A DNA stretch of 48,840 bases, taken from assembly GCF_001434255.1 (NCBI RefSeq), contig NZ_AZEY01000028.1, forward strand, positions 28,380 through 77,219. Reading direction: 5' to 3'. Positions 2,471 to 48,840 of the stretch are shown piece by piece. Origin of the DNA: Lentilactobacillus diolivorans DSM 14421. GTDB lineage: Bacteria; Bacillota; Bacilli; Lactobacillales; Lactobacillaceae. Position 1 is the stretch's first letter. Each line of letters starts with the position of its first letter. Position numbers and translations under genes: made by a program. Under the pieces are notes generated by a model. The model made no database searches, was not told where the DNA came from, and was given only the letters and a program-made list of their open reading frames with translations.

Positions 2471-3205
2471 ATGTTAGAAGAACTTAAGCAAGAAGTTTAT
2501 GAAGCAAACATGCAGCTTCCTAAGTTGGACCTTGTTACTTTTACTTGGGGAAACGTTTCCGGAATTGACCGTGACAAGGGATTATTTGTCATCAAACCCT
2601 CTGGTGTGCCATATGACAAGATGAAAGCATCAGACATGGTGGTTGTTGATTTGAATGGTAAGGTTGTTGAGGGTGACATGAATCCATCAAGTGATACCCC
2701 AACTCATACTTACTTGTATAACCATTTTCCAAATATTGGCGGAATTACCCATACCCATTCACCTTGGGCGGTTTCTTTCGCTGCTGCCAAGATGGATGTT
2801 CCGGCTGTAAGTACAACCCACGCCGATACTTTCTATGGCGATGTGCCATGTGCACCAGCCTTAACAGAAGAACAGATCAAGGAAGCTTACGAGTTGAATA
2901 CTGGTAAGGTTATCGTTGATGAATTTGAAAAACGTGGCGTTGATCCGGATGCTGTTCCTGCTGTCTTAGTTAGCCAACATGGTCCATTTGCATGGGGCCC
3001 AACACCCGACAAATCAGTATATAATGCCAAGGTGCTTGAGGTATCAGCAGAAATTAGTTATCACGCATTGCAACTAACACGTGATGAAATCCATGTACCA
3101 CAATATCTCTTGGATAAGCATTATTATCGTAAACATGGTAAGAATGCGTACTATGGTCAAAACAGTGCAAAGTCAAAGACGCATGCGGAACATGAAAAAA
3201 ACTAG
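2471..3205 (+). CDS. araD: L-ribulose-5-phosphate 4-epimerase
   Basis: Converts L-ribulose 5-phosphate to D-xylulose 5-phosphate, which feeds the phosphoketolase or pentose phosphate route. The 244-residue length fits the class II aldolase/AraD family. Visible motifs are GNVSGID near residue 26, KPSGVPY near 44 (phosphate binding), the metal-binding histidines in THTHSPW near 93, and SQHGPFAWG near 169. It lies 20 bases after araB with its own AAAGGTG-type ribosome binding site, so it is translated from the same transcript. Its stop codon TAG (3203-3205) is also the first three bases of a palindromic element, so any operon continuation to araA is interrupted here. The C-terminal tail is lysine- and histidine-rich. 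Confidence 0.92.
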   Translation: MLEELKQEVYEANMQLPKLDLVTFTWGNVSGIDRDKGLFVIKPSGVPYDKMKASDMVVVDLNGKVVEGDMNPSSDTPTHTYLYNHFPNIGGITHTHSPWAVSFAAAKMDVPAVSTTHADTFYGDVPCAPALTEEQIKEAYELNTGKVIVDEFEKRGVDPDAVPAVLVSQHGPFAWGPTPDKSVYNAKVLEVSAEISYHALQLTRDEIHVPQYLLDKHYYRKHGKNAYYGQNSAKSKTHAEHEKN

Positions 3206-3432
3206 AGTGTGACATGAAGCGCTTAGATCCCAGAATATAAAGACAAACAACCGGATATCCCTGAATTTGGGATATCCGGTTGTTTGTCTTTATATGGCCG
3301 GGATCTGCTTCATGGCACACGTTTCAGCACAGTAACCCGGTCAGCAGCCGATATCCCGGTTTTGGGATATCGGCCGAAGTGCTTTATATGGCCGGGAGCT
3401 GCTTGTTGGCACACGTTTCGGCTGTAGTAACC
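3203..3432 (+). repeat. Gene-end palindromic element, full copy plus one tandem half unit
   Basis: The full copy (3203-3337) begins with the araD stop codon TAG. Outer stem: GTGACATGAAGC pairs with GCTTCATGGCAC. Second stem: AGATCCC pairs with GGGATCT. The conserved internal loop is AGA against GGCC. The inner palindrome is ACAACCGGATATCCC with its complement around a TGAATTT loop. The tail is CACGTTTCAGCACAGTAACC. A second unit (3338-3432) keeps only a small hairpin (GCCGATATCCC / GGGATATCGGC), a right core TTATATGGCCGGGAGC and another tail. The remaining gap to 3588 shows nothing further. There is no T-run, so it is not a standard intrinsic terminator. Confidence 0.85.
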
Positions 3433-3588
3433 TAAATGTGAACGAGTCATAGGTTATGATTACTTTTTGGAATTGCAGTAAAATTAAATTATCAAACTAT
3501 TTGTCACTAAAGTAATCATTTATTACTAAGGGAATCGCATCATTCAAAAATGGTTGTTGGTCTAACGTTATTATGCCAAGCCAAATGT

Positions 3589-4491
3589 TTATTGATGAAT
3601 TTTCACAAAATTAGGGTTCTGATACTCTGGATTTGGATAATGATAAAATCCTTCACCAGTAGCGACTCCCAACCTATTAGCCTCTACATATTCGGCCAGT
3701 TTATTAGCTATCTTCTTATAATTGCTGTCTTTTGAATTTTTATAAAATTCCATTTCAATATTAAACGCGGTGTTTAACCCCATAATGTCAAGGAATCCAA
3801 ACGGACCACGGTCAACTCCCATACTAACCATCCAATTCTTATCGATAGAAATTGGATCCGCAAAACCATTTGCCCAAAGAGATAATGCTGCATTAATCAT
3901 TGGTAAGAAAATTGAATTCATCACATATCCTGAAATTTCTTTTTTTATAAAAATGGGGATCATGTGAATCTTTTTGGCAAAGTCTTCGGCATCGTCGATG
4001 GTAGCCTGTGGTGTTCCAGGAGCCCACATCAATTCTGCTACGTTGTGTAGCCAAATTAAATTTGCAAAATGCATCGCCATAAATCGGTCTTTATTGGGTA
4101 CAAAATTAATCAATTGACTTGGAATTAAGGTAGATGAATTTGTTAGCAACAAAGTTTTATCACCAATATAAGGCATAAGTTTTTTGAAGGTTGATTCTTT
4201 AATATCTATGCGTTCAGGAACAGCTTCAACGATCACATCTGCAGCCGTAATTGCCGATTTCAAGCTTGTTGTAAATGAAAGATGCTTACTGGCTTTGGCA
4301 ATTTGCTCATCGGTAGCTTTGATATCGTGTTTGTATTGATTAGGATATGTGGCAATCTTGTTATTTGCATTACTAATTGCCTTATCTGAAATATCGTAAA
4401 TAATCGTCTGTAGTCCTGAAAAAGCAGATTGATAAGCAATCTGACTACCCAGAACACCACCACCTAAAATAACAACTTTTTTGATATCCAT
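3589..4491 (-). CDS. 3-hydroxyacyl-CoA dehydrogenase family protein
   Basis: An NAD-dependent dehydrogenase of the 3-hydroxybutyryl-CoA dehydrogenase type, 300 residues, cytoplasmic. The N-terminus carries the Rossmann dinucleotide motif ILGGGVLGSQIAY (about residues 8-20) followed by an acidic YDIS at the end of the second strand, favouring NAD. The later segments AVPERIDIK and TNSSTLIPSQL, and the C-terminal helical dimerisation domain with GPFGFLDIMGL, are typical of the family. The true substrate is unknown: lactobacilli generally lack a full beta-oxidation pathway, and no thiolase or enoyl-CoA hydratase is nearby. A cre site overlaps its promoter, so glucose repression is likely. It stands alone on the minus strand. 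Confidence 0.8.
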   Translation of the reverse strand: MDIKKVVILGGGVLGSQIAYQSAFSGLQTIIYDISDKAISNANNKIATYPNQYKHDIKATDEQIAKASKHLSFTTSLKSAITAADVIVEAVPERIDIKESTFKKLMPYIGDKTLLLTNSSTLIPSQLINFVPNKDRFMAMHFANLIWLHNVAELMWAPGTPQATIDDAEDFAKKIHMIPIFIKKEISGYVMNSIFLPMINAALSLWANGFADPISIDKNWMVSMGVDRGPFGFLDIMGLNTAFNIEMEFYKNSKDSNYKKIANKLAEYVEANRLGVATGEGFYHYPNPEYQNPNFVKIHQ

Positions 4492-4519
4492 AATATCAGT
4501 CCCTTCTGACTTTACGATT

Positions 4520-4548
4520 ATTTTATCTCTATGTGAAAGCGTTTACAA
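4520..4548 (-). promoter_or_regulatory. Promoter with overlapping CcpA (cre) site
   Basis: On the minus strand TTGTAA (4543-4548) and TAAAAT (4520-4525) are exactly 17 bases apart, 29 bases upstream of the hydroxyacyl-CoA dehydrogenase start. The 14-base sequence TGAAAGCGTTTACA at 4534-4547 matches the cre consensus TGNAARCGNTTNCA at every position and overlaps the -35 box and spacer. A CcpA molecule bound there would block RNA polymerase, so carbon catabolite repression of the gene is predicted. Confidence 0.75.
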
Positions 4549-4619
4549 TGAAAGTGCCGGATCTGAACTCAATTTTGGTTAAATGAATTATGTCAGGTGA
4601 AACTCGCAGGGCATAGCTC

Positions 4620-4690
4620 ATTATGACTGTTATTACATATGGCGGGAAGCGGTTTATTATCACGCATTTCGATGTAAGAATCACAAGCAT
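4620..4690 (+). repeat. Decayed right half of the palindromic element
   Basis: The segment around TTACATATGGCGGGAAGCGG, followed by TTATTATCACGCATTTCGAT, aligns with the right core and tail of the element family (TTATATGGCCGGGAGC..CACGTTTCGGCA) with many substitutions. No left arm is visible. It sits in the 338-base gap between two divergent genes, away from any 3' end, which may explain why it has decayed. The rest of the gap up to 4829 shows only a weak TATACT at about 4784-4790 that could belong to the next gene. Confidence 0.45.
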
Positions 4691-4829
4691 GAAAGTGTCA
4701 GTTCCAATGTGAGATAACTCATAATTACAGCGATAGGCTGGCTCTCCAGTGATTATGGCTCGATGGATATAGCCAAGTTCACATCAAAAGACTATACTGG
4801 TGTATATTTTGAAAAATGGAGATTTCTAA

Positions 4830-5663: not shown

Positions 5664-5732
5664 GTGTAATTAATTGACCAACCTCCCTTCAAAGATTAAA
5701 CTGACTGCAAAATATGAATGGAGGCGTTTACC

Positions 5733-9258: not shown

Positions 9259-9430
9259 GGTTTATCTTAATTTTGATTGATACGGTGGTTGCTTAGGGGT
9301 GACTGTTTCGAAAACAAATCACTTGCTGAGACACTCTAATTTTCACTAAAGATTCTTACCCGCTACTTCACTTTTGACCAGCTTGCGGTACGATAAATTA
9401 GTTAAATATCCAAGAGAGGTGGATCTTATT

Positions 9431-10747
9431 TTGCAAACTCATGTCAACCCATCCCATAAGCAGATTACAAGTAGGTTGCTGATTATGATCGCAACATTGT
9501 TTATGGCTTTGGCACCACTTAATAATGCTTATGCTAAAACAAATAAAAAACAGTATCAGTTTGAAGCAAAGGAAATTTATGTGATGGATGTCAAGTCTGG
9601 TCAGATGATTTATCAAAAGAACGGTAATCAGAAGCGGCCAATCGCCAGTCTGTCCAAGTTGATGACTTTGTATTTAACCAAACAGGCTATTGATCGGCAC
9701 AAATTAAACTGGAATCAAAAAGTGGCGGTTAGTAAGCCATTAATTAAAATGAGCAAAAGTTATGAATTAGGGACATTTAAGATTAAGCATTCCAAACAAT
9801 ATACGGTTAAGCAATTGTATCAAGCGGCATTAATTGCATCATCAAACTCAGCTGCCATTGCACTGGGGCAAGCCGTGGCCAATGGTAATAATACGCAATT
9901 TATTAAACAGATGAATCAACAGGCTAAAAAATGGCACATTGATGCCAACTTTGTTAGTAGTTCGGGCTTGGACAATACTGATTTAAGGAAGTATCATCTT
10001 CAAATTCCAGGATCAAGTAATAAGGCACAGAACATGGTGAGTGCCAAGGCAATTTCAACGGTTGCCGCTAAAGTACTGACTGAATTTCCGTCAATTACCA
10101 ATTGGAGCAAAAAGTCAGCGATGAAGGTGGGCGATCAGGTCCTGGTTAACAGTAATCGCTTACTGCCGGGAGGTGCTTTCTATAAAAAAGCTAATCATGT
10201 CGATGGATTAAAAACCGGTTTTACGGATACGGCTGGATTATGTCTCACTATTTCATACTGGAAGAATGGCCGACATCTCATTGCAACAATTATTGATAGT
10301 AATACAATTTTCTCGTCAATGGTTAAGTTGATTAAATCGATTGATCGCCATTATCGAATGGTTAAAGTCCCGTTGACTACTCATCAATTTAGTGTTGATA
10401 AGCATGTTGTTACCGCGACGCCGCAGGTGAAGGCAACGGCAATCTGGCTGAGAAGGGGATCAACGCAAACCAAGAGCACTAAGCAGTATACCAAAACAAC
10501 AGAAAAGCTTCCGGTCAAGCAGGGCGAAATTGTTGGTAATACCCTGATTAAGCTATCGGGTGGTCGAACGGCAGCGGTACCAATGCTGGCAGCTAATTCG
10601 ATTAAAGCAAACGTAAATAAAAAGACAGTTAAACAGGTTAAAAATCAATCATGGTGGCAAAAAATCGGTAACTTTATCCTGAATATTTTTGTCGGACTGG
10701 TGGCATTGATGGCAAGGTTGATTGAGACGGTGGTGAAGCTGTTTTAG
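9431..10747 (+). CDS. dacA: D-alanyl-D-alanine carboxypeptidase (PBP5-type, peptidase S11)
   Basis: Removes the terminal D-alanine from peptidoglycan pentapeptides outside the cell. With the TTG start at 9431 (GAGAGGTGG eight bases upstream; a longer frame to 9374 has no ribosome binding site) the protein has 438 residues and begins with a clean signal peptide ending AYA near 35. Catalytic motifs are SLSK (S73, K76), the SSNSA triad element near 138 and LKTGFTD. A 90-residue C-terminal domain follows, and the last 25 residues (IGNFILNIFVGLVALMARL) form an amphipathic or membrane anchor, as usual in PBP5. A second paralogue lies at 20047-21231. The TAG stop leads straight into a palindromic element. 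Confidence 0.88.
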   Translation: MQTHVNPSHKQITSRLLIMIATLFMALAPLNNAYAKTNKKQYQFEAKEIYVMDVKSGQMIYQKNGNQKRPIASLSKLMTLYLTKQAIDRHKLNWNQKVAVSKPLIKMSKSYELGTFKIKHSKQYTVKQLYQAALIASSNSAAIALGQAVANGNNTQFIKQMNQQAKKWHIDANFVSSSGLDNTDLRKYHLQIPGSSNKAQNMVSAKAISTVAAKVLTEFPSITNWSKKSAMKVGDQVLVNSNRLLPGGAFYKKANHVDGLKTGFTDTAGLCLTISYWKNGRHLIATIIDSNTIFSSMVKLIKSIDRHYRMVKVPLTTHQFSVDKHVVTATPQVKATAIWLRRGSTQTKSTKQYTKTTEKLPVKQGEIVGNTLIKLSGGRTAAVPMLAANSIKANVNKKTVKQVKNQSWWQKIGNFILNIFVGLVALMARLIETVVKLF

Positions 10748-10974
10748 AGAGTGCAAAAAGGGACGGTTAGCTCCCAGAATATAAGTCACATAACCCCATG
10801 TTCCTGATTTTGGAACATGGGGTTATGTGACTTATATGGCCGGGAGCTGTCCCTCTTTTGCACGTTTAGGCACGGTAGCCAAGGAACACCCATGTTCCTG
10901 AATTTGGAACATGGGGTTATGTGACTTATATGGCCGGGAGCTGTCTCTCTTTTGCACGTTTAGGCACGGTAGCC
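10745..10974 (+). repeat. Gene-end palindromic element with one tandem unit
   Basis: The full copy spans 10745-10880. The dacA stop TAG begins TAGAGAGTGC. The outer stem GTGCAAAAAGGGAC pairs with GTCCCTCTTTTGCAC, AGCTCCC pairs with GGGAGCT, and the inner palindrome is CCCCATGTTCC around a TGATTTT loop. A second unit (10881-10974, 94 bases further on) repeats the inner hairpin and the right arm but not the left arm. Both tails read CACGTTTAGGCACGGTAGCC. The rest of the 355-base gap to the next gene (10975-11102) holds only its ribosome binding site and a TTAAACTTAGAGCAATAATA stretch of no clear role. Confidence 0.87.
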
Positions 10975-11102
10975 AAAAACGGCACCCATTCATTTACCAA
11001 ATTGATACGTAAAGATGCGCTAATCTTTACAAACATCCGGTTCCGTTGTACTTAAAATAGGTTAAACTTAGAGCAATAATAATCATACTTGGAGTGAACG
11101 CG

Positions 11103-11963
11103 ATGGCTAATTATAAAATTGTTCAAATTTCTGATACTCATTTAACTGTTGATGGGGCCAAACCAGCAAATCATCAGTTAATTGATCCTTATGAAAAGTT
11201 ACAGTCAGTTTTTGATGATATTTACGTAACTAATGTTGACCCGGATTTAATTGTGATCACTGGCGATCTGGTTCATAACGGTGACGAGGATTCGTATCGT
11301 CATTTTCATCATATTGTTCAGCAAGAGGAAGAAAGATTGATGACCCCGATTGAAGCGATTCTGGGCAATCACGATCGAACTGATCAATTTTACGAAGGCT
11401 ATTTAGGTAAACCATCACTACCACGTTATTACTTTGACGTTGAAAGTAATGATTGGCATTTATACTTTCTGGATACTAAGTGTGGCGATATTGAACAGGG
11501 ATACTTGGATCAAGCTCAGTTGGAGTGGTTAAGTGATCGATTGAGCCATTCGGAAAAGCCAGGGCTAATTTTTATGCATCATCCACTACTGGGAGCACCG
11601 GTAAAGCAAATGAAATACAGTATTCTTCAAAATGGTGATGAATTAAAACGGGTAATTTCCGGAACGGATGTTAGAGCGATCTTTTCAGGCCATGTTCATT
11701 TTGCAAATACGTATCTACAGAATGGCGTCTTAAACGTTGTGGCTGATTCCACAGCCTATCATATTAATTGTGCCAATCCGCACCAGCATTTTGTGGTGGA
11801 TGGGACGAGTTATAATATTATTCACCTTGATGGCGACGAAATTGGTGTTGAGCAACGTTTACTGCGCTTAGGTACTAAGACAATTAATACGTTTAAGATT
11901 CCAAATACGAATTTTGTTGACCCTAAATTGATGAAGCGGCAGATGGAGAATGCAATGGGGTAG
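11103..11963 (+). CDS. Metallophosphoesterase, CpdA/3',5'-cyclic nucleotide phosphodiesterase-like
   Basis: A 286-residue calcineurin-like phosphoesterase using two metal ions. All family blocks are present in order: ISDTHL near residue 9, GDLVHNGD near 58, LGNHD near 92, MHHP near 160 and FSGHVH near 198. This arrangement is that of CpdA-type cyclic nucleotide phosphodiesterases and class III phosphodiesterases. The true substrate (cAMP, c-di-AMP products or a phospholipid headgroup) cannot be told. Start: GGAG at 11091-11094 fits ATG 11103 better than the GTG at 11094. Its TAG stop is the first base triplet of another palindromic element. Cytoplasmic, single-gene unit. Confidence 0.82.
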   Translation: MANYKIVQISDTHLTVDGAKPANHQLIDPYEKLQSVFDDIYVTNVDPDLIVITGDLVHNGDEDSYRHFHHIVQQEEERLMTPIEAILGNHDRTDQFYEGYLGKPSLPRYYFDVESNDWHLYFLDTKCGDIEQGYLDQAQLEWLSDRLSHSEKPGLIFMHHPLLGAPVKQMKYSILQNGDELKRVISGTDVRAIFSGHVHFANTYLQNGVLNVVADSTAYHINCANPHQHFVVDGTSYNIIHLDGDEIGVEQRLLRLGTKTINTFKIPNTNFVDPKLMKRQMENAMG

Positions 11964-12365
11964 AGTGCAAAAAGCCGCGGTTAGCTTCCAGAATATAAGC
12001 CCTGCAAACCAATATTCCTGATTTTGGAATATTGGTTTGCAGGGCTTATATGGCCGGAAGCTGCGGCTCTTTTGCACGTTTAGGCTTGGTAACCAAAAGC
12101 ACCAATATTCCTGATTTTGGAATATTGATTTGCAGGGCTTATATGGCCGGAAGTTGCGGTTCTTTTGCACGTTTAGGCACGGCAGCCCAAAAGCATCAAT
12201 ATTCCTGATTTTGGAATATTGGTTTGGAGGGCTTATATGGCCGGAAGTTGCGGTTCTTTTGCACGTTTAGGCACGGTAGCCCAAAAGCACCAATATTCCT
12301 GATTTTGGAATATTAATTTGCAGGGCTTATATGGCCGGAAGCTGCGGCTCTTTTGCACGTTCCGA
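11961..12365 (+). repeat. Gene-end palindromic element with a three-unit tandem array
   Basis: The first copy starts at the stop TAG (11961). The outer stem GTGCAAAAAGCCGC pairs with GCGGCTCTTTTGCAC, AGCTTCC pairs with GGAAGCT, and the inner palindrome CAAACCAATATTCC closes on TGATTTT. Three more units follow with the GCACGTT tail at 12074, 12167, 12261 and 12355, that is, a period of 93-94 bases. Each carries its own CCAATATTCC hairpin and right arm, but none has a left arm. Small differences (GAAGCTGCGGCT against GAAGTTGCGGTT) distinguish units. The array fills the whole intergenic gap and ends about 15 bases before the stop of the convergent acetyltransferase gene. Confidence 0.88.
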
Positions 12366-13626: not shown

Positions 13627-13739
13627 ATAGGAGTGCAGTAAACTAATTTGGAATTTGGATTGCAATGATTTACTGAGGTGAAATGGGTAAAAGCAAGTAG
13701 TTTGCGGTCAGATATAATATTTGATTTTTATCTTGCTCT

Positions 13740-13872
13740 GGCAACTTAGCCAAAACGTGTGAAAGAGCCGCAACTTCCGGCCATATAAGGCACTTAAGCG
13801 GTATCCCCGAAATCAGGGATACCGCTTAAGTGCCTTATATTCTGGAAGCTGAGTGCGGCTTTTCACACTCTA
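13740..13872 (-). repeat. Gene-end palindromic element, minus orientation
   Basis: Read on the minus strand it starts TTTAGAGTGTG at 13872, past the 3' end of the minus-strand membrane protein gene (stop at 13936). The outer stem GTGTGAAAAGCCGC pairs with GCGGCTCTTTCACAC, AGCTTCC pairs with GGAAGTT, and the inner palindrome CACTTAAGCGGTATCCC closes on a TGATTTC loop. The usual left bulge GGTT is ACTC here. The tail reads CACGTTTTGGCTAAGTTGCC. It is a single copy with no tandem units. The remaining part of the gap (13627-13739) shows nothing else. Confidence 0.85.
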
Positions 13873-14335: not shown

Positions 14336-14368
14336 CTAAAGTAATTAATAAGAGAGGTGTGACACGCA

Positions 14369-14389
14369 TTGAAAATTGCAAATCGTTAA
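14369..14389 (+). CDS. Upstream leader peptide MKIANR (candidate)
   Basis: A six-codon ORF starting with TTG and ending in TAA, preceded by AGAGAGGTG nine bases upstream. It is the first translatable sequence in the leader of the ABC-F gene. Its RNA can pair in two ways: the 3' part GCAAATCG (14378-14385) with CGATTTGT (14439-14446), and the central AAAATTGCAAA (14372-14382) with TTTGCAATTTT (14610-14620), which is the 5' arm of the terminator. Short leader peptides of this kind control other ABC-F resistance genes, but the function here is inferred. Confidence 0.5.
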   Translation: MKIANR

Positions 14390-14601
14390 TACAGAAATTA
14401 ATACTGACTCGCTGTCTCGTTGACAGGGGTTTTCTGTGCGATTTGTAAGATGGTAAGGATAACTGGTTTAGAGTATTGTCAAGAATTTAACCAATCGTTA
14501 TCTAAACGATTCTTGGAATGTGTTTTCAAGAATCAATGTGAGAATTAGAATCGAAATTTAGTGTCATTCTAATTAAACATCCACGACAATTCAAAGTTCA
14601 G

Positions 14602-14638
14602 AAGGCCCGTTTGCAATTTTTTTGCATGCGGCCTTTTT
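14602..14638 (+). terminator. Intrinsic terminator inside the ABC-F leader
   Basis: AAGGCC..TTTGCAA pairs with TTGCA..GGCCTT around a T-rich loop and is followed by TTTTTT. It lies 55 bases before the ABC-F start codon and downstream of its own promoter, so it must be conditional if the gene is to be expressed. Its 5' arm is complementary over 11 bases to the leader ORF. Confidence 0.7.
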
Positions 14639-14692
14639 TATATGTTAAATAGATGACCTGTTTGATGAGATGGCCAAATGAGGTGATCTCTT

Positions 14693-21353: not shown

Positions 21354-21626
21354 AGAGTGGGCCAGCAAGCGGTTAGACCCCAGAATATAAGCCCCCCTAA
21401 CTTGATATTCCCGATTTTGGAAAATCAAGTTAGGGGGCTTATATGGCCGGGGTCTGCTTGCTGGTCCACGTTTCGTCTAGGTAGCCAGCCCCTAAACCCA
21501 TATTCCTGAATTTGGAATATGGGTTTAGTTTGCTTATATGGCCGGGGTCTGCTTCTGATTCCACGTTTCGTCTAGGTAGCCGGCCCCTAACCTTGATATT
21601 CCAAAATCGGGAATATTTCTTTGGAC
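21354..21626 (+). repeat. Palindromic element, plus orientation, with tandem units
   Basis: The full copy (21354-21486) has outer stem GTGGGCCAGCAAGC pairing with GCTTGCTGGTCCAC, AGACCCC with GGGGTCT, inner CCCCCTAACTTGATATTCC and its complement on a CGATTTT loop, and the tail CACGTTTCGTCTAGGTAGCC. A second unit (21487-21581) repeats the hairpin and right arm. A third is a fragment (TTGATATTCC, AAAATCGGGAATAT). Unlike most copies, it is not at a gene 3' end in its own direction: the gene to the left begins at 21231 on the minus strand. It lies next to a second element in the opposite orientation. Confidence 0.83.
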
Positions 21627-21760
21627 TTTTTATTTAGCTGAAACGTGGTCAAACAGGCAGCCCCCAGAATATAAATAGGCCCAATCAATATTCCTGAACT
21701 TGGGAATATTGATTGGGCCTATTTATATTCTGGGGGCTAACCGCCTGTTGGACCACTCTG
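21627..21760 (-). repeat. Palindromic element, minus orientation, symmetric variant
   Basis: Read on the minus strand it begins CAGAGTGGTCC at 21760, four bases past the stop of the aldo/keto reductase. The outer stem GTGGTCCAACAGGC pairs with GCCTGTTTGACCAC. This copy is unusual: both sides of the core read CCCAGAATATAA, so the usual GGCC side of the internal loop is missing and the central region is a nearly perfect palindrome of more than 70 bases. The tail CACGTTTCAGCTAAATAAAA shares TTTTTATTTAGCT with the fragment at 31666-31707. Confidence 0.83.
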
Positions 21761-31599: not shown

Positions 31600-31712
31600 A
31601 ACAAAAAGGCAACTTCCAGTCGTGTCACCGAATTATCCAGTTATTCAAGTCCGGAATAGCTTGTTGCCCTTTTTATTTAGCTAAAACGTAGCCCAGCAAG
31701 CAGTCCATTTTA
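31600..31712 (-). repeat. Fragment of the palindromic element
   Basis: On the minus strand GGACTGCTTGCTGGGCTACG then TTTTAGCTAAATAAAAAGGG (31707 to about 31666) matches the right arm and tail of the family, with the same TTTTTATTTAGCT flank as the copy ending at 21627. A larger imperfect inverted repeat (AAAAAGGCAAC and GTTGCCCTTTTT) spans 31603-31674. It lies directly past the stop of the minus-strand methyltransferase. The left arm and core are not recognisable. Confidence 0.5.
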
Positions 31713-35179: not shown

Positions 35180-36487
35180 ATGAATAATGTTTCTGTTTCG
35201 GACAAGAAATCACCAGTTCGCAATGCAATTTTAGGCTTTCAACATTTGCTTGCCATGTATTCCGGTGATATTCTGGTGCCATTATTGATCGGTGCAGCGC
35301 TTAAGTTCAATGCTGTTCAGATGACTTACTTAGTATCAATGGATATTTTTATGTGTGGTGTTGCCACGTTACTTCAAATTCGGAGAACACCAATTACTGG
35401 GATTGGGTTGCCGGTTGTTTTGGGCTGCGCGGTTGAGTACGTTGCGCCACTTCAGTCAGTTGGTAAGAATTTCGGTTTAGGGTATATGTATGGCGGCATT
35501 ATTGTTGCCGGACTGTTTATTATCTTGGTTGCGAAGCCATTTGCCCACTTACGGAAGTATTTTCCACTTGTTGTAACGGGTTCATTGATTACTTTAATTG
35601 GGTTCACGTTAATGCCGGTTGCTTTCCAAAATATCGGTGGTGGGGATACAGCTGCTAAAGCCTTTGGTAACCCAACTCATTTATTTTTAGGCTTCTTTAC
35701 TGCATTAGTTATTATTGTATTGAATATTTGGGCCAAAGGCTTCCTTAAACAAATTTCAATTTTGATTGGAATCTTAGTTGGAACGATCACTGCGATTGCT
35801 ATGGGAACAATTGATTTTGCGGCTGTTGGTCAAGCGCATTGGGCTCAATTGCCACAATTCTTCTATTTTTCTGCGCCAAAGTTTGAGTGGTCTTCAATTG
35901 CAACGTTAATTCTGGCGGCCTTAACCTGTATGATTGAATCGACTGGTGTCTACTTTGCGTTAAGTGATATTACCGGTCGTAAGCTAGAAGATCGTGATTT
36001 GGAACATGGCTATCGTTCAGAAGGGATTGCTGCAATTCTTGGCGGTGTCTTTAATACTTTCCCATATTCAACATTCTCTCAAAACGTTGGAATTGTGCAA
36101 TTGTCCGGTATCAAAACATTAACCCCGATTTACTACTCAGCTTTCATGTTAATGATTTTAGGCTTAATTCCAAAGTTTGGCGCTATTGCAACGTTAATCC
36201 CATCATCTGTATTGGGTGGTGCGATGTTAGTGATGTTTGGAATGGTTGGTGCCCAAGGAATTAAAATGTTGTCCAAGGTCGAGTTGAATAACAAAAACTT
36301 GTTAATTATTGCAATTTCGGTTGGTTTGGGAATTGGGGTAACAACCCAACCAAGCTTATTCCAATATTTACCAGCAAGTGTTCAGGTCATTATGAGTAAC
36401 GGAATGGTAGTTGGAAGTTTTACGGCGGTTATTTTAAACATTCTTCTAAATCACACGGGATTGAGGGAACGGGTGGAAGAAGAGTAG
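35180..36487 (+). CDS. pbuX: Xanthine permease (NCS2 nucleobase:cation symporter)
   Basis: A 435-residue membrane protein with about 12-14 helices that imports xanthine with a cation. NCS2 signatures are GFQHLLAMYSGDILVPLLIG near residue 19, the long motif around IESTGVYFALSDITGRKLED (near 253-272, with the substrate-binding Glu), and the purine-type GGVFNTFPYSTFSQNVGIVQ near 291, which separates xanthine/urate permeases from uracil permeases. AAAAGGGAGAATATC precedes ATG 35180. No xpt (xanthine phosphoribosyltransferase) gene is linked. Controlled by a predicted PurBox pair. The TAG stop is also the first triplet of a palindromic element. Confidence 0.88.
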   Translation: MNNVSVSDKKSPVRNAILGFQHLLAMYSGDILVPLLIGAALKFNAVQMTYLVSMDIFMCGVATLLQIRRTPITGIGLPVVLGCAVEYVAPLQSVGKNFGLGYMYGGIIVAGLFIILVAKPFAHLRKYFPLVVTGSLITLIGFTLMPVAFQNIGGGDTAAKAFGNPTHLFLGFFTALVIIVLNIWAKGFLKQISILIGILVGTITAIAMGTIDFAAVGQAHWAQLPQFFYFSAPKFEWSSIATLILAALTCMIESTGVYFALSDITGRKLEDRDLEHGYRSEGIAAILGGVFNTFPYSTFSQNVGIVQLSGIKTLTPIYYSAFMLMILGLIPKFGAIATLIPSSVLGGAMLVMFGMVGAQGIKMLSKVELNNKNLLIIAISVGLGIGVTTQPSLFQYLPASVQVIMSNGMVVGSFTAVILNILLNHTGLRERVEEE

Positions 36488-36862
36488 AGTGCAAAAAAAG
36501 ACGCTTTGATCCCAGAATGTAAGACCAATAAGACGGATACCCCTGATTTTGGGGTATCCGTCTTATTGGTCTTACATGGCCGGGATCAGTCTTTTTTTGC
36601 ACGTTTTGGCACAGCAACCAAAATTGGTAATTGGTAAATGGTTATTGATTATATGGCCGGGAGCTGCTTGTTGGTGCACGTTTCAGCATGGTAGCATCGG
36701 TGTGAGGATACCCCTGATTTTGGGGTATCCGTCTTATTGGTCTTACATGGCCGGGATCAGTCTTTTTTTGCACGTTTTGGCACAGCAGCCAAAATTGGTA
36801 ATTGGTAAATGGTTATTGATTATATGGTCGGGAGCTGCTTGTTGGTGCACGTTTTGGCACGG
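36485..36862 (+). repeat. Gene-end palindromic element with a mixed two-type array
   Basis: The full copy begins at the permease stop TAG (36485): GTGCAAAAAAAGAC pairs with GTCTTTTTTTGCAC, ATCCC with GGGAT, inner GACGGATACCCC on TGATTTT. After its tail the array alternates: a short unit with arm GGGAGCTGCTTGTTGGTGCA, then a second hairpin unit with arm GGGATCAGTCTTTTTTTGCA, then the short unit again. The pair repeats after 171 bases. The short units have lost the inner hairpin and instead carry TGGTAATTGGTAAATGG. One late copy has GGTCGGG in place of GGCCGGG. Confidence 0.85.
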
Positions 36863-36900
36863 CTGATACACACCTTTCCGCTAAATGCTCCACGCAATCA

Positions 36901-37930: not shown

Positions 37931-38267
37931 AATACTATTCTCCTTTAAGATTCTCTCTTAGTTTAATTGTTTAGTTATCATACCGATTATAAGATATTCT
38001 GCCCTAATGTGCATTCATATTGACTTATACACCGTCTAATTATGAGCAAAAAGTCATCATTAAGTATATCAATTCAGAACTTGGTAGTAAAGGGTATACA
38101 TATATATAGTTGATCATTAAAACAATTCTTAATAATTAGAAAACAATTACCATATGGTACTATCATAAAATTGTGAATTAAGTGGCAACAAAATATGAAA
38201 AAAATATGTTCGGGGTTAAAATAAAGGTACAATTTTGATTGGAGACATGTGTTTAGGGGGTACTTTT
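37931..38267. promoter_or_regulatory. Divergent intergenic region lysR / GH65
   Basis: AT-rich and without any gene. A perfect 12-bp palindrome TACCATATGGTA lies at 38148-38159. A candidate promoter for the phosphorylase is TTGTGA (38171-38176) and TATGAA (38194-38199) with a 17-base spacer. LysR-type T-N11-A sites cannot be singled out with confidence in such AT-rich sequence. No cre site was seen, which is unusual for a sugar-use gene. Confidence 0.4.
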
Positions 38268-40580
38268 ATGAGAATCGAACAATCACCGGAATTTCAAATT
38301 CACTTGCAAAATTTGAGACATAAGGAACCATTATATTTGGAAACAATTTATAACGTCGGCAATGGTCATTTGGGAGTGCGGGATTCTAATCCATTGCAAG
38401 GAAACAATCTCGACTATATTGGGTCACCAGGGCTTTTCGTGAATGGCTTTTTTGATTATAATGATGTCTCGTATGGTGAAAAATATACGGAATATCCTGA
38501 GAATGATCAAGTCATTAACCGGCTCTGTGATCCAAGATATATTCGAATCAAGATAGCTGATGAAGATTCGGCAACTGATCATTTCCAGGTTGACAATATT
38601 GACAAGAATTTAGACATGCAAACCGGTCTACTTCATGAAATATTTAGTGTTACGACTCCTGAAAATCGTAACTTTAATTTAGTTATTGAAAGTTTTGCCA
38701 GCTTAAGCAAACAAAATGTTTATGGCATTAAATATTCAATTATTCCAACAAATTTTGATGAGGAAGTCGAAATCATTAAAGTTCATGACTATATTAATCA
38801 GCAGACTCACCAACAAAATGAAGATGTTCGGGTTAACCAAAGTGTGGGTCAGATGCAACTTGATTTTATTCATGATAATGGCCAACCAAGTTATTTGGTC
38901 ACTACTTTTCGAAGTCAGCAGGGACTGATTTTAACTTATCAAGCTGGTGAAAATAAGCTACCTGATCCACCGATTGAATATTTTATGGATGAAGACAGAC
39001 ATTATGGCTATCATAGTAAGTATTTTGCCAAACGGGGCAGTCAGAAGGAATTTTCCTTCTTATTTGCAATAGGGGATATTCACCCGCTGGTTAACGCCCA
39101 GATGTATTCAGATCAATACGTGTCGGCACTTGACAACTATATCCGTGATACGACTTTTCGGTCGGAATTAATGGCTTCAGCTCAGGTCTGGCAGACATTT
39201 TGGTTGCATAGTGACGTGGTAATAGATGGGGATCCTGCCATTCAACAGTCATTGAGATTTAACCTGTTTGAACTGAATCAATCAGCTGGGCGTGATGAGT
39301 ACACCAGCATTCCTGCCAAGGGCTTGACCGGCAACGGCTATGGTGGTCATTTCTTTTGGGATACCGAGATTTTCATGATGCCATTTTTCTCTTATACGCA
39401 GCCGAAACTTGCTAAGAAGTTGTTAATGTTTCGATATCATACCCTGCAAATTGCTAAGGAACAGGCCAGTGAATTCGGCTTAAAAAAGGGTGCAATGTAT
39501 GCTTGGCGAACAATTAACGGTTATGAGTCCAGCTCATACTGGCTTGCAGGTATGGCGCAATTTCATATTAATGCCGACATTGCCTTTTCAGTCGAACAAT
39601 ATTATACGATTACGGGTGATGAAGAATTCCTCAAAAAGTATGGGTACGAAATTATTTTGGAGACGGCCCGTTTTTGGATGCAATATGGTAATTTTGCGGA
39701 AATTAATGGGAAGCAGCATTTTGTCATTAATAAGGTGACAGGGCCGGACGAATATAGTGCCTTGGTTGATAATAATTACTATACAAACGTGATGGCACAA
39801 TTTAATCTGCGCTTGGCTGTCAAATATGCGACCCAATTCAGCAATGATGATATCTTGAGCCAGTTGAATGTTTCGGGGAAAGAAATCGATCAAATGAAGG
39901 AAGCCGCTGATCTGATGTACCTGCCATTTGATAAGGAAAAGAATATTAAAATTCAGTACCAGGATTTTGAACAGTTACCGCGAATGGATATTAGTAAGGT
40001 TGATCAAAGTAAATTCCCACTGTTACTGCATTACCATCCATTAATGCTATATCGCTATCAAGTCAATAAGCAGGCTGACACAATTATGGCTGATATTCTG
40101 TTCCCACTTGGGAATCCTATTGAGGAATTGAAAGCTGATTATGAATTTTATGAACCGATTACAACTCATGATTCAAGCCTCTCGAAGGCGATGTATGCCA
40201 TCGCGGCATCGAGAGTGGGCAAGCACCGGCAATCTTATGATTTCTTTTCACAGGCTGTTAAAACGGATTTGATGAATTCGCATCATAACACTCAAAATGG
40301 AATCCACGCGGGCAGCTTGGGAGCGGCCTGGATGGGTGTTGTGTATGGCTTTGCGGGCATTGTCAATAATGCCAAGCACTTTAGTTTGGAACCGAAGTTA
40401 CCATCGGCATGGAACAGCATTAAGTTTAAGTTGCGCCTGCATGGTAATGAATGCTTATTTACAATTTATCAGGATGAGGTCCAGATTGAACTGATGAGTG
40501 GCAAGGGCATTGAGGTCTATGTGTATAACAAGAGGGTAAAGGTGGAGCCGGAGAATTCGAAGATGGTGTGTGAATATTAG
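38268..40580 (+). CDS. Glycoside hydrolase family 65 disaccharide phosphorylase, specificity unknown
   Basis: A 770-residue cytoplasmic inverting phosphorylase that splits an alpha-glucoside with phosphate to give beta-glucose 1-phosphate. The N-terminal beta-sandwich (about 1-260, ETIYNVGNGHLGVRDS) is followed by the (alpha/alpha)6 catalytic barrel with GHFFWDTEIFMMPFF near 360 and the general acid Glu in VTGPDEYSALVDNNYYTN near 490, then HDSSLSKAMYAIAASR with the phosphate site and the C-terminal sandwich. The sequence differs from the classical lactobacillar maltose phosphorylase. Kojibiose, nigerose, trehalose or glucosylglycerol are possible substrates. No beta-phosphoglucomutase or sugar transporter is next to it. 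GGGGGTACTTTT before ATG 38268 sets the start. Its TAG stop opens a palindromic element. Confidence 0.83.
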   Translation: MRIEQSPEFQIHLQNLRHKEPLYLETIYNVGNGHLGVRDSNPLQGNNLDYIGSPGLFVNGFFDYNDVSYGEKYTEYPENDQVINRLCDPRYIRIKIADEDSATDHFQVDNIDKNLDMQTGLLHEIFSVTTPENRNFNLVIESFASLSKQNVYGIKYSIIPTNFDEEVEIIKVHDYINQQTHQQNEDVRVNQSVGQMQLDFIHDNGQPSYLVTTFRSQQGLILTYQAGENKLPDPPIEYFMDEDRHYGYHSKYFAKRGSQKEFSFLFAIGDIHPLVNAQMYSDQYVSALDNYIRDTTFRSELMASAQVWQTFWLHSDVVIDGDPAIQQSLRFNLFELNQSAGRDEYTSIPAKGLTGNGYGGHFFWDTEIFMMPFFSYTQPKLAKKLLMFRYHTLQIAKEQASEFGLKKGAMYAWRTINGYESSSYWLAGMAQFHINADIAFSVEQYYTITGDEEFLKKYGYEIILETARFWMQYGNFAEINGKQHFVINKVTGPDEYSALVDNNYYTNVMAQFNLRLAVKYATQFSNDDILSQLNVSGKEIDQMKEAADLMYLPFDKEKNIKIQYQDFEQLPRMDISKVDQSKFPLLLHYHPLMLYRYQVNKQADTIMADILFPLGNPIEELKADYEFYEPITTHDSSLSKAMYAIAASRVGKHRQSYDFFSQAVKTDLMNSHHNTQNGIHAGSLGAAWMGVVYGFAGIVNNAKHFSLEPKLPSAWNSIKFKLRLHGNECLFTIYQDEVQIELMSGKGIEVYVYNKRVKVEPENSKMVCEY

Positions 40581-40955
40581 AGTGCAAAAAGGGACGGTTA
40601 GCCCCCAGAATATAAGGCACTTCAACCAATATCCCTGATTTTAAGGGATATTGGTTGAAGTGCCTTATATGGCCGGGGGCTGCCCCTCTTTTGCACGTTT
40701 CGGAACAGTAACCATTCCTGTTTTTGGAATGTTGGCTTTTATTAGTTATATGGCCGGGAGCTGCTTGTTGGTGCACGTTTTGACATGGCAGCCATCCCTG
40801 ATTTTAAGGGATATTGGTTGAAGTGCCTTATATGGCCGGGAGCTGCTTGTTGGTGCACGTTTTGACATGGCAGCCGTCCCTGGTCTTGAGGGGTATTGGT
40901 TGAAGTGCCATAAATGGCCGGGAGCTGTCCCTCTTTTGCACGTTTCGACATACAA
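40578..40955 (+). repeat. Gene-end palindromic element with a three-unit array
   Basis: The first copy begins at the phosphorylase stop TAG (40578): GTGCAAAAAGGGAC against CCCCTCTTTTGCAC, AGCCCCC against GGGGGCT, inner GCACTTCAACCAATATCCC on TGATTTTA. Three right-arm units follow, two of the GCTTGTTGGTGCAC type and a last one of the GTCCCTCTTTTGCAC type. The last arm fits the left arm's GGGAC better than the first arm does. Units are about 84 bases long. Tails degrade along the array (CGGAACAGTAACC, TGACATGGCAGCC, CGACATACAATC). Confidence 0.87.
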
Positions 40956-44532: not shown

Positions 44533-44535
44533 AAA

Positions 44536-44665
44536 AGAGTGGGCCAACAAGCGGTTAGCTCCCAGAATATAAGGCACCTCACCGAATATTCTGGTTTTGA
44601 ATATTTGGTGAGGTGCCTTATATGGCCGGGAGCTGCTTGTTGGCCCACGGTTTTAGTCAAGTAAC
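44536..44665 (+). repeat. Gene-end palindromic element between arcB and arcC
   Basis: A single full copy. GTGGGCCAACAAGC pairs with GCTTGTTGGCCCAC, AGCTCCC with GGGAGCT, inner GGCACCTCACC with its complement around ATATTCTGGTTTTGAATATT. It begins four bases past the arcB stop. The tail is shortened and diverged (CACGGTTTTAGTCAAGTAAC). It lies within an operon that usually is arcABC, so a role in operon processing or mRNA dosage is possible. Confidence 0.85.
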
Positions 44666-44715
44666 TTATAAAAAATGAACTAGAATAAATAAAAGACTGT
44701 TAATTGATTAAATTT

Positions 44716-44788: not shown

Positions 44789-45748
44789 ATGGGAAGAAAA
44801 ATAGTTGTCGCGTTAGGAGGTAACGCGATCCTTTCAAAAGATGCTTCTGCTGCTGCACAACAACGGGCGCTACTTGAGACGGCCAGACAGTTAGTTAAGT
44901 TTATTGAAAATGGCGATCAGCTCATTATTTCCCATGGTAACGGCCCTCAAGTGGGAAATCTGTTGTTACAGCAGGCGGCTGGTAGTACCCAAGATAATCC
45001 GGAGATGCCACTTGATTCTTGTGTTGCAATGACTCAGGGAACAATTGGTTATTGGATGCAGAATGCGATGAATCAAGTGATTCGGGAACGGGGATTAGAC
45101 CAGGCCGTTGCGACGGTGGTGACTCAAGTGGAGGTTAGTTCCGATGATCCGGCGTTTGGTCAACCTACCAAGCCGATTGGCCCATTCATGAACAAAGCTG
45201 AAGCTGATTTAGCTCAAAAACAAAATCCTGAATTCAAATTTATAGAGGACGCTGGTCGTGGTTACCGGCGAGTTGTCCCGTCGCCCAAACCAATAGGCGT
45301 CATTGAAACGGCTGCAGTTAATACATTGGTTGATGCTGGGATTGTCCCAATCACTGTTGGTGGCGGGGGCATTCCAGTTGTTCGGGATGGCAATCGATTA
45401 GTCGGTAAGGAAGCGGTAATTGACAAGGACTTTGCCAGCGAAAAGTTGGCAGAGTTGATAGACGCAGATGCGCTGATCATTTTAACGGCTGTTGATAATA
45501 TTTACGTGAATTTTAATCAACCCAATCAGAAGAAACTGAAGCGGGTTTCGACCGTTGAATTAGGCCGATACATTGAGCAAAAACAATTTGCACCAGGGAG
45601 TATGCTGCCCAAAGTGGAAGCGGCAGTTGATTTTGTTAACACAACGGGAAAAGAAGCGGTCGTGACGGCTCTGGATAATATCGAAGGCTTTATCAAAGAA
45701 GGGGAAGGAACGGTGATTGTAAAACAGAGTGTGTCAACAAACGTTTAG
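44789..45748 (+). CDS. arcC: Carbamate kinase
   Basis: Transfers phosphate from carbamoyl phosphate to ADP, giving ATP, carbon dioxide and ammonia, the last step of the ADI route. The 319-residue amino acid kinase fold has VVALGGNAIL near residue 5, SHGNGPQVGNLLLQ near 50, the PLDSCVAMTQGTIGYW block near 73, and IVPITVGGGGIPVV near 190. GAGAGTGAGGAAATCACG precedes ATG 44789. Oddity: the normal C-terminus appears to end near EGEGTVIVK, and the last residues QSVSTNV plus the TAG stop are read from the left arm of a palindromic element (AGAGTGTGTCAACAAAC). The extension is short and probably harmless. Confidence 0.94.
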   Translation: MGRKIVVALGGNAILSKDASAAAQQRALLETARQLVKFIENGDQLIISHGNGPQVGNLLLQQAAGSTQDNPEMPLDSCVAMTQGTIGYWMQNAMNQVIRERGLDQAVATVVTQVEVSSDDPAFGQPTKPIGPFMNKAEADLAQKQNPEFKFIEDAGRGYRRVVPSPKPIGVIETAAVNTLVDAGIVPITVGGGGIPVVRDGNRLVGKEAVIDKDFASEKLAELIDADALIILTAVDNIYVNFNQPNQKKLKRVSTVELGRYIEQKQFAPGSMLPKVEAAVDFVNTTGKEAVVTALDNIEGFIKEGEGTVIVKQSVSTNV

Positions 45749-46018
45749 CTCCCAGAATATAAAGCATTTCAGCTAATACCCCTGGTTTAGGGATATTAGC
45801 TGAAATGCTTTATATGGCCGGGAGTTGCTTGTTGGCACACGTTTCGGCAAGGTAGCCATTCCAGTTTTTGGAATCCGGGCTTTAGTAGTTTGTATGGTCG
45901 GGATCTGGTTATTGGCACATGTTTTGGCATGGTAGCCATTTGAGATTTCTGGAGGTATTGATATGGCTTGCTCTTATATGGTGGAGATCTGCTAATTGTC
46001 CCCATTTTAACATGGTAG
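45726..46018 (+). repeat. Palindromic element that overlaps the arcC 3' end, with tandem remnants
   Basis: The left arm AGAGTGTGTCAACAAAC starts inside the arcC coding sequence, and TAG in its GTTTAGCTCCC is the arcC stop (45746-45748). The right arm is GGGAGTTGCTTGTTGGCACA. Inner stem AGCATTTCAGCTAATA..CCC on TGGTTTA. Two further units are progressively decayed: 45855-45932 with GTATGGTCGGGATCTGGTTA, and 45933-46018 with TATATGGTGGAGATCTGCTA and CATTTTAACATGGTAG. From 46019 to 46250 nothing else is seen apart from the ribosome binding site of the next gene. Confidence 0.85.
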
Positions 46019-47535: not shown

Positions 47536-47642
47536 ATCAGTGATAATGATGGGTATTGAACTGCCAAGATCAGTTAAAGATGACTGATTTGATATTTTAG
47601 AGGTAGTTCCTGCACACTTTAGAAAGTAGGAAAAATAAAAAT

Positions 47643-48326
47643 ATGAAGCAACTATTCTTTGATTTTGATGGGACGATTGCTGATTCTGAGGTTGGCATTG
47701 TTAAATCGATTAAGTATTTTATTAATAAAATGGGTCTGCCTGAGCTGACTGATGATCAATACAGGCAGTTTATCGGGCCGGCGTTGGTGACGAGCATTCA
47801 TAAATTCTATCCGCATTTATCGGAGAATGACGTTTCAACTGCCTTGAAATATTACCAGGAATACTATGAAGATGCTGGTATTTTTCAGTTGGATATTTAC
47901 CCAGGGATCCTTGAAGAGTTGGGTGTTCTAAAAAATGCGGGGTATCATTTGCATATTGCATCAGCCAAGCCTGAGGATATGATTAATTTAATTAGTGATC
48001 ACTTCGACTTGGGACACTACTTTGATGGTGAGTTTGGCGCAACCAGTGACGAGCGAACCCGGATCACGAAGACTGCTGTTTTAAAATATGCTTTAGAAAA
48101 GACTGGTGCCAATCATAAAGACAGCGTCATGATTGGTGATCGGGACACCGATATGATTGGCGGCTATGAAAATCAGGTCAAGACATTGGGCGTGACTTAT
48201 GGCTTTGGGGATGTCCCGGAACTTTCTCAAGCGCATGCGAGTCTAATAGTTAATCAGCCTGATGAAATTCGACGGGGTGTTGAACAATTAAGTGTCCGAA
48301 AAGCTTCAGGTGCTAGGTTTAACTAA
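47643..48326 (+). CDS. HAD-superfamily hydrolase, phosphoglycolate phosphatase-like
   Basis: A 227-residue cytoplasmic phosphatase of HAD subfamily IA. Motif I FFDFDGTIADSE near residue 5 (nucleophile Asp), a helical cap domain (about 18-85), motif II HIASAKPEDM near 107, motif III Lys near 143 and motif IV MIGDRDTDMIGG near 160. Relatives act on phosphoglycolate, nucleotides or sugar phosphates. A beta-phosphoglucomutase is unlikely because no such cap motif was noticed. GTAGGAAAAATAAAAAT before ATG 47643 gives the start. Single gene with a terminator downstream. Confidence 0.85.
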   Translation: MKQLFFDFDGTIADSEVGIVKSIKYFINKMGLPELTDDQYRQFIGPALVTSIHKFYPHLSENDVSTALKYYQEYYEDAGIFQLDIYPGILEELGVLKNAGYHLHIASAKPEDMINLISDHFDLGHYFDGEFGATSDERTRITKTAVLKYALEKTGANHKDSVMIGDRDTDMIGGYENQVKTLGVTYGFGDVPELSQAHASLIVNQPDEIRRGVEQLSVRKASGARFN

Positions 48327-48399
48327 CAAGTATCATTAACCATATGTTGTTCAAATAAATTATCTACAACATGGCTCCGATTATTATCAAAAACAACAA

Positions 48400-48452
48400 A
48401 AACGAGTGGGCCAAGGCAAATAAACAAATTTTGTCTTGGTCCACTCGTTTTA
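48400..48452. terminator. Bidirectional intrinsic terminator
   Basis: AAACGAGTGG.CCAAG.CAAA pairs with TTTGTCTTGG.CCACTCGTTT (small mismatches) with flanking A- and T-runs. It ends the HAD gene and possibly a gene to the right of the window on the minus strand. Confidence 0.82.
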
Positions 48453-48540
48453 AATTGCAGTTGTGATTGAACCGGCGGATGGCAGAATAGTTTTCTGTCT
48501 ATTTGAATGTTGAGCCATTTTTGTGGATGTAATGATGAGT

Positions 48541-48840
48541 TACCGAGCCTAAACGTGCGAAAGAGCCGCAGCTTCCGGCCATATAAGTTCCCCAAGCCAA
48601 TATTCCAAAGTCAGGAATATTGGTGGTGTTTGGGGCACCCGAGCTGAAACGTGCGAAAGAGCCGCAGCTTCCGGCCATATAAGTCCCCCAAGCCAATATT
48701 CCAAAGTCAGGAATATTGGTGGTGTTTGGGGCACCCGAGCTGAAACGTGCGAAAGAGCCGCAGCTTCCGGCCATATAAGTCCCACAAGCCAATATTCCAA
48801 AGTCAGGAATATTGGTGGTGTTTGGGGCACCCGAGCTGAA
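48541..48840 (-). repeat. Tandem array of the palindromic element, minus orientation, cut by the window end
   Basis: Three units with the AACGTGCGAAAG tail mark at 48553, 48649 and 48745, an exact 96-base period. On the minus strand each reads a CCAATATTCC hairpin, TTATATGGCCGGAAGCTGCG, CTCTTTCGCACGTTT. Because 96 is a multiple of three, the array is open in several frames, which is no sign of a protein. The units are nearly identical, much closer to each other than units in other arrays, so the amplification is recent. The full copy with the left arm should lie to the right, at the 3' end of a minus-strand gene. Confidence 0.87.

Follow-up and report, generated by a model that had tools for sequence, protein, structure and literature searches.

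A family of hairpin repeats at stop codons, with signs of mobility, in Lentilactobacillus diolivorans and other Lactobacillales

The window analysed here, a stretch of 48,840 nucleotides from Lentilactobacillus diolivorans DSM 14421 (contig NZ_AZEY01000028.1, positions 28,380 to 77,219), contains many copies of a palindromic element at gene ends. We established the anatomy of this element, the strand-specific pairing of its stems, its position at stop codons, its whole-unit differences between species and its spread. On balance, we favour a Lactobacillales family of small, non-coding and non-autonomous mobile hairpins, which are like REP and BOX repeats and have an architecture of their own, and these hairpins probably act in the 3' regions of mRNA. 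A sequence-only reading of the window had claimed ten full copies together with arrays and fragments. All ten matched a covariance model (R1) at 112.8–137.0 bits, eight on the + strand and two (13738 and 21626) on the − strand, and the arrays were found as right-half units after seven of the full copies and on the − strand at 48538–48840.

Architecture of the hairpin unit

The full unit of about 134–135 nt forms one long hairpin. The alignment of 40 copies from several genera showed an AGAG head, an outer stem of about 14 bp, a 4-nt left bulge and a 7-bp stem, followed inward by a loop of AGA against GGCC, the ATATAA/TTATAT segment, a long copy-specific inner stem and its loop; the 3' side of the hairpin carries CACGTTT and then a looser tail. 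The left bulge reads GGTT, GCTT, GTTT or GGGT and is 3 nt in some copies, the bulge and the asymmetric loop are retained across all the aligned copies, and the outer stem contains the inverted repeat GTG..CAC. The anatomy proposed from the window alone (outer stem, GGTT bulge, 7-bp stem, AGA/GGCC loop, core and variable palindrome) thus held, the exception being the symmetric copy at 21626–21759. The constant tail that had been proposed with it stood as far as CACGTTT and failed beyond, where the sequence is nearer to CGGCTAnGTAAC and variable. A possible pseudoknot between bulge and tail (GGTT with AACC), visible by eye in some copies and missing from others, was considered and set aside.

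The R1 model was built from 40 rows including eight of the ten window copies (not those at 21354 and 21626). Both sides had changed in 40 of 48 pairs, and the covariation score was 0.612 as compared with 0.162 for shuffled and at most 0.146 for slid alignments, indicating that the structure shared by the copies is not due to chance. Nearly every stem letter varies with compensation and the geometry remains constant. Independently of the model, the core CCCAGAATATAA was found 98 times in the host genome and not once with a reversed-pattern control. At six of the exact-match places (G000:C8:67660, C17:63448, C35:161470, C56:88495, C72:50043 and C73:38497) the hairpin is fully symmetric with AGA on both sides, and these copies are probably products of hairpin-templated correction. 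When 32 matches reaching into other genera and families were aligned, the score was 0.888 against 0.198, in an alignment that was fitted to the model and in which five rows are the same hairpins on the opposite strand. The copies from other genera mostly retain the 14/4/7 geometry but have other bases in the loop (GGA opposite GCA or AGTA, for example); 16 distant copies were taken for this folding and 15 were folded, the L240 locus being clipped at a contig end.

The sequence-only reading had not recognised the family by name. A scan of the window with Rfam 15 gave 12 matches, all under the gathering threshold, and 11 of them were microRNA models fitting long hairpins. Listings from searches of open-licence PubMed Central papers gave no name for the hairpin family, and it is apparently unnamed so far.

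The folded strand and its position at stop codons

The inner stems of 120 copies contained 2057 Watson-Crick positions, 95 G.U, 8 A.C and 10 other mismatches. The difference was also seen in distinct contexts (73 G.U against 8 A.C), after thinning to less than 60% arm identity (means of 27.3 against 3.1) and in a set of 31 copies that had been found by pattern and not by the model (40 against 3). Pairing in a duplex or hairpin-templated correction would treat G.U and A.C alike, and therefore this asymmetry speaks for selection on the + strand as a folded single strand. When the mismatches were divided by location, for which 95 of the 103 copies of the position sample described below were readable, G.U stood against A.C at 29 to 3 in stop-adjacent copies, 27 to 0 in distant co-oriented copies and 13 to 2 in copies having no co-oriented gene. 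Thus, the + strand is selected as a folded single strand also where the copy is not co-oriented with a gene. The folded strand is probably RNA, and it would be in this form, rather than as single-stranded DNA, that it is recognised. The proposal that the element is a chromosome-organising site on double-stranded DNA was disfavoured by the same asymmetry, which indicates that a single strand is what selection acts on.

The position of the elements was measured on a sample of loci, namely those of the 30 best-scoring copies plus those of every second remaining copy outside the window. Of 200 model matches in these loci, the best 150 were taken, and 103 distinct non-overlapping elements were retained from them. 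By crude calls of open reading frames (ORFs), a co-oriented upstream gene was present for 82 of the 103. In 50 of these 82 the head lies at −2 to +6, counted from where the stop codon ends, and in 8 more it lies at −30 to −3, with the stop inside the element, so that 58 of the 103 sampled copies touch or overlap a stop codon. Among 54 copies of other genomes, 27 of the 45 with a co-oriented upstream gene were within −25 to +8. As a control, points placed at random in 56 further gaps of the loci from the own genome would fall at 0 to +8 in a fraction of 0.091, and the values comparable to this control are 34 of 82 at 0 to +6 in the own genome and 15 of 45 at 0 to +8 in the other genomes, the remaining near copies overlapping the stop. 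The commonest start was −2, where the AG of the element completes a TAG stop (11 copies in the own genome and 9 in others). The element is also found within the arcA–arcB gap in several species. An mRNA 3'-end structure, one of the functions suggested from the window, is supported by this position together with the single-strand-specific pairing.

A second subfamily has a unit of about 187 nt running from an AGAG head to the T-run of an intrinsic terminator, and 11 members were aligned:
L122, L123, L152, L160, L172, L173, L180, L181, L182, L187, L192

The identity per 20 nt was 0.75–0.94 inside the unit and about 0.4–0.5 outside on both sides. Its 3' edge being the T-run, the unit ends where the transcript would end. 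Nine of the 11 members start 14–197 nt after a co-oriented stop, one has no upstream ORF and one overlaps an ORF call. In addition, 22 of the 103 full units are followed by a right half of this subfamily and a terminator-like hairpin. The main unit has no T-run, and the GC-rich stem with T-run of an intrinsic terminator is not found in it; the earlier statement that T-runs are lacking is thus right for the main unit and wrong for the second subfamily elsewhere in the genome.

The copies in the window and at its edges are as follows:
1..75, + strand: probable right-half unit, truncated where the window begins, from core matches
3204..3339, + strand: full element, R1 134.5 bits, supplying the AG of the TAG that ends ORF 2471-3205
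3340..3436, + strand: right-half unit, array, D1 family; right core at 3384
10748..10882, + strand: full element, R1 128.9 bits, directly after the stop of ORF 9374-10747
10883..10978, + strand: right-half unit, 94-nt repeat
11962..12096, + strand: full element, R1 132.0 bits, overlapping the TAG stop of ORF 11094-11963
12097..12365, + strand: three right-half units, right cores at 12139, 12233 and 12327
13738..13871, − strand: full element, R1 113.8 bits, after a T-run
21354..21488, + strand: full element, R1 125.3 bits, no co-oriented stop codon adjoining
21489..21583, + strand: right-half unit, D6 repeat
21626..21759, − strand: full element in the symmetric form (AGA on either side), R1 112.8 bits, 5 nt past the stop codon of ORF 21765-22718
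31647..31706, − strand: decayed fragment, D12 repeat
36486..36621, + strand: full element, R1 137.0 bits, overlapping the TAG that ends the permease ORF 35180-36487
36622..36867, + strand: right-half units including a 171-nt tandem duplication, D9 repeat
40579..40715, + strand: full element, R1 124.3 bits, overlapping the TAG stop of ORF 38235-40580
40716..40943, + strand: three right-half units, right cores at 40746, 40828 and 40910
44536..44668, + strand: full element, R1 123.9 bits, 3 nt after the arcB stop and upstream of an older hairpin
45726..45859, + strand: full element, R1 127.0 bits, supplying the final codons of arcC together with its stop
45860..45937, + strand: right-half unit followed by a decayed one, D1 repeat
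48538..48840, − strand: array of three right-half units reaching the window end, from right cores and sequence
G000:C72:77269-77403, same strand as the 48538-48840 array: full unit just beyond the window end

The full units trailed by right-half arrays are those at 3204, 10748, 11962, 21354, 36486, 40579 and 45726. Upstream of the half at 1..75 a left core was found at G000:C72:28299, too distant to belong to the same half. The letters of the element at 45726–45748 encode the last codons and stop of arcC, and the C-terminus of ArcC differs from that of the relatives. The older hairpin downstream of the element at 44536 is also present in element-free relatives; across the arcB–arcC gaps compared (L031–L043), a hairpin of the type GGGACTGGCA..TGTCCCAGTCCC occurs in relatives whether or not they carry the element and seems to represent the older terminator. 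A separate terminator-like palindrome occurs at 48384–48450, and its GAGTGGGCCAAG/CTTGGTCCACTC arms resemble the outer arms of the elements. At 14340–14690, a long hairpin leader with a T-run precedes a gene at 14693 named ABC-F-like by reading, and in appearance this leader resembles the attenuators found with ABC-F genes.

Spread, movement and the search for a mover

The host genome contains at least 146 R1 matches, at least 145 of them at 78 bits or more; the count is a lower bound because 150 of 1819 candidates were scored. Within the genus, matches were present in 19 of 24 genomes, three of these having 1–4, and the other 5 genomes had none. Wider surveys used stricter filters and scored the best 16–20 candidates per genome. 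On this basis, matches were found in 72 of 161 Lactobacillaceae genomes (20 of 40 genera) and in 23 of 198 genomes of a Lactobacillales sample, 17 of them from other families at up to 73.7 bits, and in none of 198 Bacillota genomes outside the order. Five of the 17 other-family matches were folded; four were near the architecture and one (L259) was looser. The exact two-core pattern was found in 17 of 301 Lactobacillaceae genomes and 4 of 40 genera. Of 80 named loci of 6–21 kb around arcA, 16 matched, belonging to Lentilactobacillus, Secundilactobacillus and, with one weak match, Levilactobacillus; the Companilactobacillus, Limosilactobacillus and Ligilactobacillus arcA loci among them gave no match. 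The element is therefore present in many assemblies, so that neither of the two refuting conditions named by the sequence-only reading (an already named family, or absence outside one assembly) came about, the first as far as the Rfam scan of the window shows.

Matches to part of one query were obtained in 22 of 72,556 plasmid records, none covering more than 80% of the query, and no match to one query was obtained in 50,697 phage records. Of four plasmids inspected, three have right-half pieces, and the fourth (L250, from NZ_CP023491.1 of Lactiplantibacillus plantarum) has a full unit at 1501–1605, directly behind the stop codon of a permease gene. The permease is a nucleobase permease resembling that of window 35180-36487, the element differs from the one there, and an IS30 transposase gene lies downstream.

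The REP/BIME-like mobility suggested earlier was supported by whole-unit differences between sister species and by dispersed near-identical copies, with similarity ratios of up to 0.985. Presence or absence between sister species was seen at the ends of arcB, arcA, xanP, malP and argR. After arcA, the L. dabitei locus (L034) reads TAG-AGTGCGGAACC.., with the element at the stop codon. The L. kisonensis contig (L036) has the L. dabitei sequence with a different unit before it, which ends in CACGTTT and is followed by the old AGAGTG head, and in L. rapi (L035) yet another unit occupies the same spot exactly before the AGAGTG head. The presence of two different units at one spot speaks for insertion. 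Two tandem units follow arcA in L. parabuchneri and L. kefiri, and the L. kisonensis assembly of L036 also has a second arc locus (L039).

Copies at the same site were compared in eight pairs. At argR in L. dabitei and L. rapi, 10 of 46 pairs had changed on both sides, 2 on one side and 2 were broken, with 1 of 41 unpaired columns changed. In the malP–argR pair of copies, the corresponding figures were 15 of 44 pairs, 5 on one side, none broken and 5 of 39 unpaired positions, and in the arcB pair 10 of 45 pairs, 5 on one side, 2 broken and 13 of 39 unpaired positions. Three further comparisons gave one identical pair, one differing at a single base pair and one that probably compares different copies. 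Such changes fit both selection in situ and replacement by another copy; compensation in situ was thus set aside as a proof of host function, replacement giving the same picture. The right-half unit behind the L. rapi argR element retains arm letters of the L. dabitei copy.

As had been stated from the window, no transposase was seen in reading its ORF list, of which no profile search was made. The RAYT partner expected from the REP/BIME likeness was sought by profile search and does not track the elements. PF01797 (Y1, RAYT included), for which the E. coli control was positive, was found in 7 of the 24 same-genus genomes against 19 for R1. The host genome has three PF01797 hits, ten genomes of the genus with at least 40 R1 matches have none, and 18,990 bases around six Y1 loci contained one R1 match. 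The reverse transcriptase family PF00078 was found in 8 of the 24 genomes and is absent from the host genome and from G233. Y1 and reverse transcriptase were thus rejected as general movers, since neither tracks the elements across the genus.

The inner arms were also tried as captured guides and rejected, as no excess of 14-nt matches was observed (2 against 0.9 when shuffled in own loci; 5 against 4.5 in other species). An excess at 12 nt (43 against 15.75) and 13 nt (25 against 3.55) in own loci and at 12 nt in other species (76 against 51.1) was tentatively put down to unmasked element fragments.

Relation to known repeats, rival explanations and meaning

REP elements are short hairpins of 20–40 nt with a conserved GTAG foot. 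The present family shares with the REP/BIME and RAYT systems of enterobacteria a large number of hairpins located where genes end, often near stop codons. It differs in the longer unit of about 134–135 nt with an AGAG foot, in the kept bulge and loop, in stem letters that are almost free and in the many carrier genomes without a Y1 gene; a short GTAG hairpin is not what was found. For E. coli, PMC12306157 places 446 of 4,072 REPs within 15 nt of a stop, reports ribosome stalling at REPs so placed and cites an earlier study that proposed 260 of 496 REPs as translational regulators. The spacing here is tighter (50 of 82 at −2 to +6), with the element often completing the stop codon, and stop-proximal E. 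coli REPs are the nearest precedent for a possible effect on the host. BOX elements of Streptococcus pneumoniae and S. suis are described in PMC3049150 as intergenic, with left, a variable number of middle and right modules, and predicted to be structured RNA. The full unit followed by right-half units resembles this A-(B)n-C form in its composite build; judged by that description, the family differs in that what is repeated is the hairpin's own right half, and in its stop-codon position and occurrence in several families. Efa-1 of Enterococcus faecalis (163 nt), one of the stem-loop families of PMC2267715, is likewise intergenic and structured, and differs in being described as a pair of adjacent stem-loops. 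ERIC and NEMIS/Correia are also hairpin repeats according to PMC3049150 and PMC2267715, being transcribed, 100–160 nt long and able to affect mRNA. A MITE would have terminal inverted repeats and a target-site duplication in common with an insertion sequence; of these traits, an inverted repeat is seen in the outer stem (GTG..CAC). The family thus behaves like REP or BOX as a small dispersed structured repeat with its own architecture, membership of either being not demonstrated.

In the mobile-hairpin reading that we favour, a cell factor would recognise the + strand as a folded single strand by its shape and loop letters and not by its stem letters, and the mover would be a trans-acting protein. 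Stop codons, or the AGAGTG head of a copy already in place, would be the landing sites of new copies; units would thereby accumulate beside the stop codon, and older ones would be left as right-half arrays. Within the mRNA, the structure may alter termination, recycling or 3'-to-5' decay, as has been reported for stop-proximal E. coli REPs.

Several observations weigh against this reading. No transposase or other mover was found, in a search that did not systematically cover insertion sequences with GTG..CAC-type ends, and G233, an assembly of two contigs with 103 matches, has neither Y1 nor reverse transcriptase. The comparison of flanks between sister species settled neither a target rule nor a target-site duplication, and any single difference may instead stem from the precise deletion of a unit between the direct repeats that border it. 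In two orthologous comparisons, compensated changes were absent and 3–4 pairs were broken. The middle and outer stems show a weaker asymmetry (60 G.U against 33 A.C, with 105 other mismatches), and a strand mutation bias may contribute to all the G.U and A.C counts. One of the 15 folded distant copies (L243) lacks the internal loop and is fully paired there, and the six symmetric copies indicate that palindrome correction at the DNA level also acts on the hairpins. Furthermore, 24 of the 82 co-oriented copies start elsewhere than at the stop codon, and a divergent gene lies upstream of 20 of the 103.

The rival that deserves most attention is primarily a cis-acting RNA of the host: lying 3' of the gene, it would insulate the stop codon and either protect the message upstream or regulate it, and its multiplication would be a by-product of usefulness. 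The stop-codon position, the occurrence in the arcA–arcB gap of several species and the argR end of L. dabitei and L. rapi, where 10 of 46 pairs are compensated against one changed column of 41 unpaired, agree with it. We nevertheless consider it unlikely, because sister species differ in whether the same genes carry the element, symmetric and truncated copies exist, copies not co-oriented with a gene show the same asymmetry and 5 of 24 genomes of the genus have no match. A family of transcription terminators would account for the location at gene ends, for the second subfamily with an intrinsic terminator at its 3' boundary and for the 22 of 103 full units followed by such a half and a terminator-like hairpin. 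The main unit lacks the T-run, however, and stands inside the arcA–arcB gap and upstream of older terminator-like hairpins, and nine of the 11 second-subfamily copies begin 14–197 nt beyond the co-oriented stop and not at it, which makes this explanation hardly probable.

At the DNA level, a REP-type element moved by a Y1 transposase (RAYT or IS200/IS605) on single-stranded DNA hairpins could explain the strand asymmetry too, as DNA tolerates G.T better than A.C. The single-strand polarity, the bulged hairpin, the four-base foot (AGAG) and the flanking site recall the ends of REP and IS200/IS605 elements, and the host genome does have three Y1 hits. The distribution of PF01797 (7 of 24 genomes against 19 of 24 for R1, with ten rich carriers lacking it) and the single match around the six Y1 loci nevertheless leave it very improbable. 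That the stem complementarity arose from hairpin-templated correction of DNA alone, with no selection on the folded strand, is suggested by the six symmetric copies, whose asymmetric loop has been overwritten; such correction would leave A.C and G.T in equal numbers, unlike the 95 against 8 observed, and the bulge and asymmetric loop were kept in 40 aligned copies, and we give this account very little credence. A chromosome-organising binding site for a double-stranded-DNA protein would suit the high copy number and the palindromic form, yet it is next to negligible in view of the single-strand asymmetry, the freely changing stem letters and the position at stop codons.

A more speculative view, which we rate as quite improbable, is that of a bacterial short interspersed element (SINE)-like repeat, a dispersed unit copied from RNA. 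In this view, the folded RNA would be recognised by an enzyme and inserted at terminating codons or close to them. It comes to mind because the second-subfamily unit of about 187 nt ends at the transcript end, because the strand under selection in the main family is the one that would be transcribed from a co-oriented gene, and because units enter beside stop codons.

The elements described here would constitute a widely spread and apparently unnamed structured repeat family of an important order of food and gut bacteria. They matter for annotation, because element letters supply protein ends such as that of ArcC in the window. If the share seen in the sample (58 of 103) holds, the stop codons of about 80 genes per cell would be abutted or overlapped. 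Two questions become testable with this family: by what means small palindromic repeats spread in genomes that lack a RAYT, and whether a hairpin placed against the stop codon adjusts translation and mRNA decay across the genome.

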